Source: Candidatus Gastranaerophilales bacterium (GTDB lineage Bacteria; Cyanobacteriota; Vampirovibrionia; Gastranaerophilales; Gastranaerophilaceae). From it: a stretch of DNA of 64,000 nt. This document shows, one piece after another, positions 25,486 through 56,886 of the stretch. The notes beneath the pieces were generated by a model that ran no database searches, had not been told where the DNA came from, and worked only from the letters and a program-made list of their open reading frames with translations. Position 1 is the first letter of the stretch, and every line of letters begins with the position of its first letter. The stretch lies in NCBI GenBank assembly GCA_944324255.1, contig CALUVM010000002.1, forward strand, positions 1-64,000, read 5' to 3'. The position numbers and the translations under genes are program-made.

Positions 25486-25938
25486 AAATTGTGCAACATA
25501 ATACCTATTATGTTGCACAATTTGTACAATTTCTTATATGGCATATTTTTAGAAAACTTTATACTTTAAATAAAATTTGTTACAAAAATTAACAAATCTA
25601 ATTAGAATTTAATTCGTTTATTCACTATCCTCCTTAAGAAAAGAGGTTTTGCAGGAATTTTTCGTCAGAAAAATTCAGTAATGCGAGTTTTTCTTTCTTT
25701 GGGAGCGTTTCTTTCTTTTTTCATCGCAAAAAAAAGAAAGAAATGCTCAAGAATAAAATTACAAATAAGTTAACGTATAAATATCAGGCTGCGGCATCAG
25801 GTCTGATGCTGCCCCACCCGAAGCTGTAACTTTCGCTGTTGCTCAACTACAGCTTCTACCCTCCCCAAAAGGAGAGGGGTGTTTCCAGTTTAAAAATTTC
25901 CATTTACCCCTGCAACATAATAGGTATTATGTTGCAGG
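25486..25938. repeat. Hairpin-rich repeat element A, bounded by inverted palindromes
   Basis: This 546-bp gap (25448-25993) has no credible gene. Its left end is a perfect palindrome with 18-bp arms (AAATTGTGCAACATAATA, 25486-25503; partner 25506-25523) and centre CC. Its right end (25909-25938) has 14-bp arms, the same core TGCAACATAATA and centre GG, so the two are inverted copies; core to core is 25492-25936, 445 bp. Inside are hairpins such as TTCTTTCTTTTTT with AAAAAAGAAAGAA, and GCATCAG/CTGATGC. Layout, size and some sequence match the element at 53016-53457. The left palindrome may also terminate trpS. A non-autonomous mobile or REPIN-like element is inferred. Confidence 0.6.
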
Positions 25939-25993: not shown

Positions 25994-27025
25994 ATGGCAA
26001 TGCACGGAGTATCTCAATGGGTTAAGGAGGCTGTTAGTCAAATTATACAAAGGGAAGGTAACCCGAAGGAAGCAGATACGTTGAAAGAATCAACAGCACT
26101 AGGTTTTTTATTGGCAAGTGCAGATAAACAGGAGGACAAAGATTTTATACAAGGATTTATGATTGAACATGTTGAGTCTAAGAAGTCAAAATCCCCTCAA
26201 GACGAGCCGCAACCGAGATCAGAACGTTTTTATAGGGATGACGGAAGTTACTATGATGAAGTATATCCAACAAATCCCCCAGGGAAAGGATGGATTTATA
26301 TAGCTTATAATTCTGATGGAACTAAAACAGTTACTGAAACTAAAATTGTTGATGGCGTTGAAGTTCCTGATACAAAAATCTTCTATGATAATGAAGGACA
26401 GGAGTATCAAAGATATGAATATTACGGAGAAAATGATAAATATCAAGTACCCGTTTCCGATGATAATATTCCGAAAGAGGTTCCTTCTAAATCAGCAGAA
26501 ACTGAGATGCAGGATAAGCAGACTAATATAACACCTGATGATGGTAAAATGAGCGCTGAAGAAATTAAAGAGGCTCGAGATATCGGCGGTGAAGTCGCTA
26601 AAAGATTGATAGGATTAACTGGGAAAAACAGTGAAGAAATTGTAAAATTAAATCTGGAAAAAATTACCCCGGAAAATGTTCTGGAATTTCTGCGTGGTTA
26701 TGAGGAAGCACGCGGGGTTCAGATGAATAATACAGATCTCCTCTCATATGGGATATTTAGCATGTTTATGGCAATGCCATCTTCTTTACAAGAAAGAGGA
26801 GATGCATTCTTCAAACAGATGCGTACAGAGTGGAATCCGGAAAAACAAGATTTGATGAGAAATATTGCAACTGCACTTAAAGATTTTGTTGCTGACAGAT
26901 ACGGTCAAGATTCTCCGCTTGTAAAAGAGTTTGAAGTAATCTTACTCGAGGATAAATTTACCAGAAAAGAAACAGCAAAACTCGATTCATTTGTAACAAA
27001 GTTATTAACTGAAAATTTAAATTAA
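25994..27025 (+). CDS. Protein of unknown function, charged, two-part
   Basis: I do not recognise this 343-residue protein. Residues 1-65 are helical (MAMHGVSQWVKEAVSQIIQ onward). A Tyr/Gly-rich middle (about 75-155) has short beta-like repeats such as DDGSYYDEVYP and DNEGQEYQRYEYYG, and a Pro/Ser/Glu linker leads to a helical C-terminal domain from about 185 (GGEVAKRLIGLTGKNSEEIV, ENVLEFLRGYEEARG). No signal peptide or transmembrane segment is seen. AAAGGAG precedes the ATG. It lies just after repeat element A and before a strong terminator, as a single-gene unit. The C-terminal domain may recur in this lineage, but I cannot verify that. Confidence 0.8.
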   Translation: MAMHGVSQWVKEAVSQIIQREGNPKEADTLKESTALGFLLASADKQEDKDFIQGFMIEHVESKKSKSPQDEPQPRSERFYRDDGSYYDEVYPTNPPGKGWIYIAYNSDGTKTVTETKIVDGVEVPDTKIFYDNEGQEYQRYEYYGENDKYQVPVSDDNIPKEVPSKSAETEMQDKQTNITPDDGKMSAEEIKEARDIGGEVAKRLIGLTGKNSEEIVKLNLEKITPENVLEFLRGYEEARGVQMNNTDLLSYGIFSMFMAMPSSLQERGDAFFKQMRTEWNPEKQDLMRNIATALKDFVADRYGQDSPLVKEFEVILLEDKFTRKETAKLDSFVTKLLTENLN

Positions 27026-52886: not shown

Positions 52887-52925
52887 AAATCCCTCCTTTT
52901 TATCTTCTTATTCCCTAATAGAATA

Positions 52926-52954
52926 ATTATAATATAAAATTCTTTTTATGAACA
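52926..52954 (-). promoter_or_regulatory. Promoter of the yceD-rpmF-plsX-fab operon
   Basis: On the minus strand TGTTCA (52954-52949) and TATAAT (52931-52926) are 17 nt apart, about 40 nt before the first ATG. This gives a conventional leader with a Shine-Dalgarno. Confidence 0.5.
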
Positions 52955-52967
52955 GAGAGAAAAGAGA

Positions 52968-53003
52968 AATCGGGGTTAGAGGTATTTACCTCTAACCCCG
53001 ATT
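52968..53003. terminator. Strong hairpin between the fab operon promoter and element B
   Basis: AATCGGGGTTAGAGGTA (52968-52984) is followed by TT and its exact reverse complement (52987-53003). There is no T-run, so it may insulate the operon promoter from transcription entering from element B. The gap from 52887 to 53498 has no credible gene. Confidence 0.5.
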
Positions 53004-53015
53004 GGTTACACAACA

Positions 53016-53457
53016 TTTTACATAAAATGATGTAAAAACCTGAATTTTGTATCGGGGCTAATGCCGCCCCGTACCCTGCACCAAAGTTCTTTCTTTTTTG
53101 AGAATGAAAAAAGAAAGAACTTTGGATAAGAAAGAAAAACACTTATTGCTGCATTTTTCTGTCGAAAAATGCCTGATTTTTCGCTCTCCTAGAAGGAGAG
53201 CGAATTTTCGCCAGGGCGAAACGAAGCAGAACCCGTCGGGGTGGGTTAACTGCGAGCGTGTGTCCGGAGGACACTATAGCGAGCATAAGAGTGCAGGCTC
53301 TGCCTGCAACAGCCATTCAGTTTAATGCCCGAAGGGCATTGAAAGCAATGCGGTTTTCTCTTTCTTTGTGTGTATTTCTTTCTCTTTGCTTTGCTACAAA
53401 GAGAAAGAAATACACAATATTAAAAATACATACGTAAACACATCATTTTATGTAAAA
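53016..53457. repeat. Hairpin-rich repeat element B with 18-bp terminal inverted repeats
   Basis: TTTTACATAAAATGATGT (53016-53033) and its exact reverse complement (53440-53457) bound 442 bp. Each end is itself palindromic about a 2-nt centre, CA on the left and TG on the right. Inside lie at least eight hairpins. The largest are CCAAAGTTCTTTCTTTTTT (53081-53099, partner 53107-53125) and TGTGTATTTCTTTCTCTTTG (53369-53388, partner 53397-53416). Smaller ones use GCATTTTTC/GAAAAATGC, CGCTCTCCT/AGGAGAGCG, TGTCC/GGACA, GCAGG/CCTGC and ATGCCC/GGGCAT. The short ORFs inside are by-products of the hairpins. Size and layout match element A. Confidence 0.6.
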
Positions 53458-53486
53458 AGATGCATTCAAGTTCTTTTTGCTTGTGG

Positions 53487-53492
53487 TATAAA
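53487..53492 (+). promoter_or_regulatory. tsaC -10 box, leaderless type
   Basis: TATAAA with an extended TGG ends 6 nt before the ATG at 53499; the -35 region is weak and no Shine-Dalgarno fits. Confidence 0.45.
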
Positions 53493-53498
53493 AGAAGT

Positions 53499-54086
53499 AT
53501 GAAAAGAATAGAAAATATTGAAAAGATTAATGAAATTTTGTTAAATGACGGAGTTATAGCATATGTAACAGATACCGTCTGGGGGCTTGGATGCCTGCCT
53601 TCAAGCGAAAAAGCCGTTAAAAAGATTTACGAAATCAAGCATAGAGAAGCGGTCAAACCGCTTATACTAATGTCAGATGAAGTCTATAATCTTTTTGATT
53701 ATCTAAAACAACCTATCCCTAAAGAAGGACAAAAACTTATAAAGAAATACTTTCCGGGTGCCCTAACCGTAGTATTGGATAAAAGTTCTAAAACGCCGGA
53801 TTATATGACTTCAAATATGCCGACTGTCGGAATAAGAATTCCGGATAATGAAATATTTGCAGAACTTTGCCGAGGGATAGAAGGAAGAGTTCTTGCAACA
53901 ACCAGTGCAAATATTTCCGGCGAGCCTCCTGCTTTAACCTATGAAGAGGCTGTGAACTATATAGGCGATAAGGCAGATTTTGTAATCCCTGATTACGGAT
54001 TTAGCGCAAAAGGCAGAGCCTCAACCGTTGTCGGTTTTAACGGAGAAACTCCTGTTGTTTACCGGCAGGGCGAAATTGAAATTTAG
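53499..54086 (+). CDS. tsaC: L-threonylcarbamoyladenylate synthase (TsaC/Sua5/YrdC)
   Basis: The 195-residue product, from ATG 53499, has the YrdC signatures VIAYVTDTVWGLGCLPSS, KHREAVKPLILM, FPGALTVVLD, VGIRIPDN and ATTSANISGEPP. It makes threonylcarbamoyl-AMP for t6A37 in tRNA. It has no Sua5 C-terminal domain. An upstream ATG at 53460 lies near the end of element B and is not needed. Confidence 0.94.
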   Translation: MKRIENIEKINEILLNDGVIAYVTDTVWGLGCLPSSEKAVKKIYEIKHREAVKPLILMSDEVYNLFDYLKQPIPKEGQKLIKKYFPGALTVVLDKSSKTPDYMTSNMPTVGIRIPDNEIFAELCRGIEGRVLATTSANISGEPPALTYEEAVNYIGDKADFVIPDYGFSAKGRASTVVGFNGETPVVYRQGEIEI

Positions 54087-54192: not shown

Positions 54193-56886
54193 ATGCTTAA
54201 AGGAAATGAAATCAGAAAATTATACTTAAATTATTTTAAAGACAAACATCAACATACAATTGTAGAAAGTTCAAGCTTAGTGCCGGATAATCCGACCGTG
54301 CTTTTGACTACAGCAGGTATGCTGCAGTTTTTACCGATATTTTTAGGGATTGTAAAATCGCCTTATGATCCTCCTCGTGCTGTATCTTGCCAGAAATGTG
54401 CAAGAGCCGGCGGAAAGGATTCTGATATAGAAAATGTAGGAAGAACCCCAAGACATCATACCTTCTTTGAGATGCTCGGGAACTTTTCTTTCGGTGATTA
54501 TTACAAAAAAGAAGTTATTCCATGGGCGTGGGAATTTGTAACAGAAGTTCTTAAGCTTGATAAAGACAGACTCTGGATAACTATTTTTGAAACCGATGAC
54601 GAGGCTTTTGAAATCTGGAGAAGTATCGGAGTTCCGGCAGAAAGAATTAAAAGAAAAGGCAAAAAAGATAACTTCTGGGGTCCTCCGGGGGCATCCGGTT
54701 CTTGCGGACCTTGCTCTGAAATCCATTATGATTTAGGCGAGCAATACAAGTGTTCTGATAATTGCGGGATTGATACCTGCGAATGCGACCGCTGGGTTGA
54801 GATTTGGAACCTTGTATTTACAGAACTTTATCAGGATGAAGAAGGAAACCAATCTCCTTTAGAAAAGAAAAATGTTGATACTGGAATGGGTTTGGAACGT
54901 ATAACAATGGTTTGCCAGGGGGTTGCTTCAACCTTTGAAACAGACTTGTTAAAACCGATTCTGGATAAAGTTTCCGAAATGTCCGGAGTTCCTTATAAAA
55001 AGTCCGAAAAAACAGATATTTCTTTAAGAATTATCACAGACCACGCAAGATGCGTAACTTTCCTTATTTCTGACGGAGTAATTCCGGGTAATGAAGGAAG
55101 AAGCTATGTTCTTAGAATGATTCTAAGACGTGCTTTAAGACACGGAAAAATCTTAGGCATGGAACTTCCTTTCCTTTATAAATTAGTTGATGTTGTTGTT
55201 GATAACTACGGAGAAGCTTACCCTGAGCTGGTTAAGAATAAGGCTAAAGTTATTGATACAATTAAAAAAGAAGAGGAAAGATTCAAACAGACTCTTGATA
55301 GAGGATATAAAATGCTGGATGAATTTATTTCCGCAAAGAAAAATATTGACGGCGAAAGTGCATTCAAACTCTATGATACTTATGGATTCCCGTTTGAACT
55401 TACAAAAGAAATTGCTCAGGAAAACGGCTTAGAAGCGGATGAAGCAGGGTTTAAAGCTGCTATGCAGGAACAAAAAGACCGTGCAAAAGCTGCAACAGAA
55501 AAAATTTCCGTAACCGGTGATATTAAGTATGCAAAAGTTGAAGAACAGGTCGGTTCAACTGAATTTATCGGATATGAAGAAAACGTATGCGAAGCAAAAG
55601 TTCTTGCGCTAATTGAAGGAGAAGGTTATACAGATGTTGTTCTGGATAAAACTCCTTTCTATGCAGAATGCGGCGGACAGGTCGGAGACAGCGGGTATTT
55701 GACTAACGACAATCTGAAAGCCGAAGTTCTTACAACATTCAAGGTAAATCATCTTTTTGTACACAGATGTCAGATAGTGAACGGTGAAATTAATGTCGGC
55801 GATACCGTTCTTGCTCAAATAGATATCAAAAGACGTGAAGAAATCAGAGTTCACCATACATCAGCTCACCTTTTGCAGGCAGCATTAATAAAAGTCTTAG
55901 GGGATGAAGTTAAGCAAGCAGGTTCTCAGGTTGAGGAAAACAGAATGAGATTTGACTTTACTTTCTCCCGTGCGATGACTCCTGATGAGGTTGAAAAGAC
56001 AGAAAACCTTATGAATGAATGGATATGTGAAAAACTTCCGGTAAATACAGAAGTTATGGGTATTGAGGAAGCTAAACTTACCGGTGCTACAGCTCTCTTT
56101 GGTGAAAAATACGAAGACGAAGTAAGAGTAGTTTCAATCGGAGGCAAAAAACACCACCACCATCATCACGGTGAAGGTGAACATCAATGCTGCGGAAGAG
56201 GCGGCTGCGGATGTAAGCATAAAGATGAAGCAAAAGAAGTAATTTCTATGGAATTCTGTGCCGGAACTCATGCCAGAAACACCGAAGATTTGAGATTGGT
56301 TAAAATCCTTTCCGAAGGTGCAATTTCAGCCGGTACAAGAAGAATTGAACTCGTTGTATCAAAGGCGGCTCTTGATTATATAAATAACAAAATCAAGGTT
56401 ACAAACGCTCTTGAATCAAGGTTCAAAGCTCATACAGATGAAGTTCTTGAAAGAGTTGAGAAATTAGCTGAGGAAAATAAAGAACTCCAGAAAGAAGTTT
56501 CAAAACTAAAAGAAGAACAGGCAAGATTGAAGTTTGCAAGTTTTATTTCCAAGGCTCAAGATATTAAAGGCGGTAAGCTGTTTATCTCAAAAGTTGAAGA
56601 TTTTGATGCCGAGGCAATTAAGACCGGTGCCGAACTTCTTGCAAATAAGTTAGGGAACAGTATTATTATCTTAGCGAATGATAAAACAGTTCTTGTAAAA
56701 GTTTCTGATAACTATGTAAAAGAAGGTATAAATGCCGGAAAACTTGTCGGTGAAATTTCAAGAGCAACAGGCGCTAACGGGGGCGGCAGACCAAACTTTG
56801 CACAGGGCGGTGTAAAAGATTCTGCCAAGCTTGATGAAATTCTTGCCAAAACCGAAATGGATTTAATCAGAGCTAATTTATCATGA
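54193..56886 (+). CDS. alaS: Alanyl-tRNA synthetase with a natural His6/Cys-rich insert
   Basis: The 897-residue AlaRS has the class II catalytic core, with TTAGMLQFLPIFLG near residue 35 and RMILRRALRHG near 305. The editing domain follows with HHTSAHLLQAAL and FCAGTHARNTEDL, then a coiled coil and the C-Ala domain (GGGRPNFAQGGVKD). Between the two editing-site motifs, residues 654-659 are six histidines followed by GEGEHQCCGRGGCGCKH. This small insert is absent from typical AlaRS and could bind metal near the editing-site zinc. Its TGA overlaps the mnmG ATG (ATGA). Confidence 0.96.
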   Translation: MLKGNEIRKLYLNYFKDKHQHTIVESSSLVPDNPTVLLTTAGMLQFLPIFLGIVKSPYDPPRAVSCQKCARAGGKDSDIENVGRTPRHHTFFEMLGNFSFGDYYKKEVIPWAWEFVTEVLKLDKDRLWITIFETDDEAFEIWRSIGVPAERIKRKGKKDNFWGPPGASGSCGPCSEIHYDLGEQYKCSDNCGIDTCECDRWVEIWNLVFTELYQDEEGNQSPLEKKNVDTGMGLERITMVCQGVASTFETDLLKPILDKVSEMSGVPYKKSEKTDISLRIITDHARCVTFLISDGVIPGNEGRSYVLRMILRRALRHGKILGMELPFLYKLVDVVVDNYGEAYPELVKNKAKVIDTIKKEEERFKQTLDRGYKMLDEFISAKKNIDGESAFKLYDTYGFPFELTKEIAQENGLEADEAGFKAAMQEQKDRAKAATEKISVTGDIKYAKVEEQVGSTEFIGYEENVCEAKVLALIEGEGYTDVVLDKTPFYAECGGQVGDSGYLTNDNLKAEVLTTFKVNHLFVHRCQIVNGEINVGDTVLAQIDIKRREEIRVHHTSAHLLQAALIKVLGDEVKQAGSQVEENRMRFDFTFSRAMTPDEVEKTENLMNEWICEKLPVNTEVMGIEEAKLTGATALFGEKYEDEVRVVSIGGKKHHHHHHGEGEHQCCGRGGCGCKHKDEAKEVISMEFCAGTHARNTEDLRLVKILSEGAISAGTRRIELVVSKAALDYINNKIKVTNALESRFKAHTDEVLERVEKLAEENKELQKEVSKLKEEQARLKFASFISKAQDIKGGKLFISKVEDFDAEAIKTGAELLANKLGNSIIILANDKTVLVKVSDNYVKEGINAGKLVGEISRATGANGGGRPNFAQGGVKDSAKLDEILAKTEMDLIRANLS

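Follow-up and report, generated by a model that had tools for sequence, protein, structure and literature searches.

Between the yceD side and sua5, a 442-bp non-coding segment, here called element B, consists almost wholly of hairpins bounded by inverted repeats. It lies in the window, i.e. the whole 64-kb stretch of DNA analysed, and the question is what kind of object it is: a structured RNA, a transposon derivative, or a DNA segment turned over by recombination.

Architecture of element B

TTTTACATAAAATGATGT at 53016-53033 recurs as its exact reverse complement at 53440-53457. B therefore has the 18-bp perfect inverted ends described in the initial annotation, which extend to 23 nt at a 91% match when the outer bases are included. 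Each end site is itself a near-palindrome, and the centres, CA and TG, are complementary, as had also been noted. About nine stem-loops were recognised in the predicted hairpin chain, two long ones with perfect arms of 19 and 20 bp and about seven shorter ones between them. Reading from the yceD side, the terminator comes first, followed by B and then by sua5:

52968..53003, no strand: neighbouring feature outside B, strong intrinsic-terminator-like hairpin after the leftward gene
53016..53457, no strand: whole element B, 442 bp, non-coding
53010..53033, + strand: left palindromic end site, ACAACATTTTA-CA-TAAAATGATGT, core CA at 53021-53022
53023-53033: inner arm of the left site, moving with the interior; the outer arm stays with the flank
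53053..53071, no strand: hairpin 1, CGGGGC/GCCCCG, left module, compensatory change in the outer pair
53081..53125, no strand: hairpin 2, 19-bp perfect arms, CCAAAGTTCTTTCTTTTTT
53151..53172, no strand: hairpin 3, GCATTTTTC/GAAAAATGC, almost invariant, with a weak terminator-like tail on the + strand
53180..53204, no strand: hairpin 4, TTCGCTCTCCT/AGGAGAGCGAA, in the variable middle of B
53206..53221, no strand: hairpin 5, TTTCGC/GCGAAA
53260..53274, no strand: hairpin 6, GTGTCC/GGACAC, right module, strong covariation
53292..53308, no strand: hairpin 7, TGCAGGC/GCCTGCA, in some copies swapped for an ATTGTGC/GCACAAC-type hairpin
53324..53340, no strand: hairpin 8, AATGCCC/GGGCATT, covariation
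53369..53416, no strand: hairpin 9, 20-bp perfect arms, TGTGTATTTCTTTCTCTTTG, double changes in 9 of 19 scored pairs
53440..53463, - strand: right palindromic end site in inverted orientation, ACATCATTTTA-TG-TAAAAAGATGC, core TG at 53451-53452

Within the window, just two loci, elements A and B, have perfect inverted 18-mers separated by 100-1000 bp; no such pair was obtained in 100 windows simulated with a first-order Markov model. Folding against shuffled controls, one of the checks proposed in the initial annotation, gave z values of -13.5 on the + strand and -17.9 on the - strand, with no shuffle as good. B is not a decayed protein-coding gene, an origin that had been named as a refuting outcome: the ORFs across it are short (71 and 75 aa) and the copies conserve hairpins. 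Searching 52900-53600 for sigma70-like promoters yielded none where 1.8 were expected; having no promoter inside, B is not an invertible promoter. Elsewhere in the window, an alanyl-tRNA synthetase (54193-56886) carries a His/Cys-rich insertion (KKHHHHHHGEGEHQCCGRGGCGCKH).

A mosaic family with covarying stems

All genomes compared are draft MAGs; the window's own genome (1.89 Mb in 43 contigs) is referred to as G000, its congeners by other G numbers and individual loci by L numbers. Sequence searches of G000 returned B-related matches at 49 places spread over many contigs, among which L002 is a nearly full-length relative (73%), the others sharing modules only. The comparison of Gastranaerophilales genomes suggested earlier detected the family in 25 of the 58 genomes of the genus and, among one-per-species GTDB genomes, a 24-base B module pattern was confined to Candidatus Gastranaerophilales MAGs. 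The elements are intergenic, often directly after a terminator hairpin, and modules are swapped between copies. B is one copy of an interspersed, non-coding, mosaic Gastranaerophilales element family. Separately, the hairpin module was found in tandem arrays with a spacing of about 371 bp at two loci of G053 (L109, L110).

Compensatory changes, also on the list of proposed checks, are present in the stems. Both arms of hairpin 2 change together between copies (AAG/CTT, ACA/TGT, AAA/TTT). Double compensatory changes affect 18 of 31 stem pairs in a 22-copy alignment and 4 of 34 in a 26-copy alignment; the former value, for the right module, was reached by none of 500 shuffles. Slid structures of the same module were 52-63% paired, against 93.5% for the actual stems. 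Counted by covariation cells, double changes numbered 71 and one-sided changes 14, an excess that fits upkeep of the palindromes at the DNA level at least as well as selection on an RNA. The characterisation of B as modular and structure-selected thus stands for the modular, structure-conserving part, since modules are swapped and stems covary, while selection on structure is unproven because template switching during replication can also keep palindromes perfect at the DNA level. More generally, perfect hairpins with compensatory changes need not imply selection on RNA.

Inversion in place between species

At 4 of 6 comparable orthologous loci, including B's own yceD-sua5 locus, the element is inverted between species while the flanks are unchanged; these orientation calls depend on the assemblies, but the repeats at the ends span no more than about 30 bp, less than a typical sequencing read. 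The B orthologue of G038 (L074:559-1070) has the same orientation as in G000, and that of G010 (L081:527-1023; genome 86% complete, 4% contamination) is inverted relative to it. The yceD-sua5 flanks align in parallel with scores of 413-554, and the inverted versus parallel scores of the element are 390 versus 73 for G000/G010 and 501 versus 71 for G038/G010. When B flips, the terminator hairpin at 52968-53003 keeps its place. The three other inversions were found at the clpP locus (379 versus 67, G000 and G004 compared with G038) and, between G038 and G010, at L073/L088 (383 versus 75) and L079/L086 (392 versus 60). Orientation is kept at L009/L089 and L077/L083, and in a seventh pair, L023/L090, the element has decayed in G000. 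In more distant congeners, yceD and sua5 are mostly separated by about 85-125 bp that contain no element; no empty site for B was found in the close relatives, which carry B or have contig breaks there.

The crossovers at the four flipped loci lie in the end sites, never at the longer and more perfect interior hairpins. From arm-specific extensions at L079/L086 it can be read that each flank keeps its outer arm and the interior takes its inner arms along; the exchange therefore took place within the core. At L079, the two cores are direct, not inverted, relative to each other, which counts against the recombinase model proposed below. A comparison of L085, L084 and L076 (G010, G038) has one element of G010 (L085) connecting flanks that belong to different elements, which may reflect a rearrangement or misassembly by way of B-family repeats.

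Similar sites around promoters and beside recombinase genes

Element A (25492-25936) follows, as previously proposed, the same plan as B with a different end sequence. Its class-A ends, CAACATAAT-NNNN-ATTATGTTG, have arms (AACATAA...TTATGTT) that by appearance resemble those of dif, the 11-6-11 site of XerC/XerD; class-B arms do not look dif-like. Class-A ends also flank segments of 210-235 bp in G000. Three of these (L104, L105 and L106, on contigs C15, C17 and C3) contain a promoter, TGTACA-17-TAT(T/C)AT, directed over the end site at the start of a gene. Two of the genes have pilin-like N-termini (MKKQGYTLAEILICLGIIGIL, MKKQGFSLMEMMIVLL) and one starts with MNKNRLGL. Judging by sequence architecture, these segments are classical invertible promoters, and the genes behind them are probably surface genes subject to phase variation in this gut relative of the cyanobacteria.

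A copy of element A that is 97% identical occupies a different locus on contig C29 (L011). Element A, together with a 343-aa gene (25994-27025, no Pfam match), forms an insertion between trpS and der that is absent from relatives. The idea that A marks a rearrangement breakpoint was rejected, as der follows 1.1 kb further downstream. From the left end of A a possible promoter, TTGTAA-16-TATAAA, is directed outwards, away from the 343-aa gene; at L011 the end matching A's left end faces an ORF, and the two arrangements could be OFF and ON states. At the locus of A in G025 (L183), a solo palindrome, AAATTGCGCAGCATAGTAACTATTGTGCTGTAGG, is made of A's left outer arm, a core and A's right outer arm. 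This single case may be an empty or excised site and agrees with loss or gain by a site-specific process.

Of 63 congeners, 50 encode short tyrosine recombinases, some 180 aa in length and made up of the catalytic domain alone. Their best match is XerA/XerD and, below the cut-off, the tyrosine-type DNA invertase NF007371. Strict site motifs number 9 in 169 kb around these genes versus 1 in 166 kb of other genus loci, the latter being element A itself. At L169, a 214-bp class-A-like inverted pair and then a glycosyltransferase gene come after the recombinase gene; at L172 the recombinase gene lies inside an inverted site pair, at L296 beside one, and at L174 beside the pair ACATTTT-AATC-AAAATGT, which is close to class B. 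B-family hairpin elements with class-B-like ends directly adjoin recombinase genes at L280 and L281. The L281 homologue has MDFIGI in place of the tyrosine context LRYIGI of its relatives and may be inactive. G000 has three short recombinases (L165, L170, L177), not one of which adjoins a B-type element; likeness of motif and adjacency in other species suggest that class-B sites may be served by such an enzyme. The 2-nt centres had raised the candidacy of a Hin/Gin-type serine invertase. G000 has only two serine recombinases, both large (479-537 aa) and on contig C33, and the short tyrosine recombinases are therefore better candidates.

A third palindrome class, GGTAAATC-NNN-GATTTACC, bounds the related element L112. 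Because many of its matches, in G018, G053 and further genomes, seem to stand alone and differ in their loops, it was not counted as a recombination site. These hairpins are frequent in G018, G047, G053, G011 and G026, with at most 24 per genome, and are another uncharacterised palindromic repeat.

Proposed mechanism

The initial annotation knew of no named class that fits B exactly. This can be revised, since the ends have the build of recombination sites, the element is found inverted in place between species, and end types of this kind bound invertible promoters and adjoin tyrosine recombinase genes. B is probably an invertible, interspersed, non-coding element whose ends would be inverted sites for a short XerD/FimB-like tyrosine recombinase, and one of those encoded in the genus is the most likely enzyme to have B as its substrate. 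The ends would be inverted copies of a recombination site with an asymmetric core and a consensus of about CATTTT-ACAT-AAAATG, the candidate target at B being the CATTTTACATAAAATG site. Recombination between the two sites would flip B in place, leaving the outer arms beside the neighbouring genes and carrying the inner arms along with the interior, which is pieced together from self-complementary modules and has no recognisable promoter. We infer both the identity of the enzyme and flipping within one population.

Such an element would be related to, or parasitic on, the invertible promoters that use the same kind of site and enzyme at surface-gene loci, while having no promoter of its own. 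Because B lacks a promoter and its orientation varies beside housekeeping genes, we prefer a passenger or parasite to a sua5 switch, and B is probably a passenger of the phase-variation machinery. As a tentative extension, less likely than not, B and its relatives may be selfish "hitchhiker invertons": promoterless hairpin arrays that colonised the sites of a genus-wide family of phase-variation recombinases, reached dozens of loci between genes and now flip there freely. If so, the invertase would sustain both the switches and a family of mobile elements, and elements would turn into promoter switches and back.

Most work on DNA inversion treats it as a means of turning surface genes on and off. 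Here, recombination-like sites enclose a non-coding repeat that exists in many copies, lies at housekeeping loci and has visibly flipped between species. The proposed reading, if true, would connect phase variation with how interspersed repeats arise in bacteria, and the loci of the family offer a natural set for measuring the flip rate of a genus-wide invertase where orientation seems neutral.

Alternative explanations

Short inverted repeats can also invert without a dedicated enzyme. B could then be a BIME-like hairpin repeat flipped by template switching or illegitimate recombination at its inverted ends, the same process keeping its hairpins perfect. The near-perfect palindromes of the stems in every copy agree with this, as do the 71 double against 14 one-sided changes, expected if one arm is copied from the other, and palindromic ends 0.4-0.5 kb apart are good substrates. 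This explanation is nevertheless unlikely given that the crossovers of the 4 flips among 6 loci always fell in the end sites, avoiding the longer interior hairpins, and that the ends of B resemble sites found beside recombinase genes and around promoters.

A second possibility, which we consider distinctly improbable, is that B is a MITE, a non-autonomous derivative of a TA-inserting IS of the IS630/Tc1-mariner type. The element would end in CATAAAATG...CATTTTATG, the flanking TA being the target duplication and flips being re-insertions at the same target. Small size, terminal inverted repeats, dispersed copies and the 97% identity of A and L011 at two loci speak for it. TA is present on both sides of A, B and L105, but it is also part of the palindrome and equally well explained as its core; moreover, a plain TA target leaves unexplained why the outer arms mirror the inner arms across 8-12 bp, and invertible promoters are bounded by ends of the same kind. 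No transposase, nor any longer copy bearing one, was seen between class-B ends in five genomes, where same-contig pairs enclose about 0.1-0.65 kb and some sites at contig ends are unpaired.

Finally, it is very improbable that B acts on sua5 and the genes around it as a structured RNA or a bidirectional terminator array, for although both strands fold very strongly, the stems covary and the + strand holds two weak terminator-like stems, folding is about equal on the two strands, orientation differs between species, module content varies freely among copies, and no Rfam family matched B above its gathering score, the best hits being far below.

Comparison with known systems

Invertible intergenic segments with end repeats of 10-20 nt have been described (PMC5903667), and tyrosine-type DNA invertase genes are enriched near invertons (PMC11892184). 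With these B shares a short intergenic segment between inverted repeats, opposite orientations in related genomes and crossover in the repeats; short tyrosine recombinase genes likewise lie beside similar site pairs in the genus, as in the fimS system with FimB/FimE. B has these structural features and would work like an inverton, with a recombinase presumably acting on its ends. Against an inverton reading, B is unlike known switches in being promoterless and beside housekeeping genes; its hairpin-array interior, its many dispersed copies and its ends, themselves palindromes with an asymmetric 2-nt centre, also differ. Passage searches of the two surveys found nothing on cyanobacteria (PMC11892184, PMC5903667) or Melainabacteria (PMC5903667), and the open-access literature yielded no description of the B family.

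The dif modules of Acinetobacter plasmids are reported to be mobile, bounded by pdif sites on which XerC/D act, and shuffled as modules (PMC6449649, PMC13141974). Modules between XerCD-type sites for tyrosine recombinases would be the trait shared with B. The dif modules carry genes and reside on plasmids, whereas B is chromosomal, non-coding and filled with hairpins.

Like BIMEs built from REP sequences, B is an intergenic mosaic of imperfect-palindrome modules, present in many copies and with modules recombined. It differs from REP systems with RAYT by the lack of a Y1 transposase, by discrete inverted recombination-like ends and by inversion of the whole element. A RAYT origin was ruled out, G000 having no Y1 transposase; PF01797 is absent from G000 and three of four close relatives (G038, G025, G004).

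MITEs, for example those derived from IS630, are small, non-autonomous, dispersed elements with terminal inverted repeats. The B family departs from them in that no parental transposase with matching ends was found (class-B ends of five genomes), in inverting in place and in possessing ends like those of invertible promoters.
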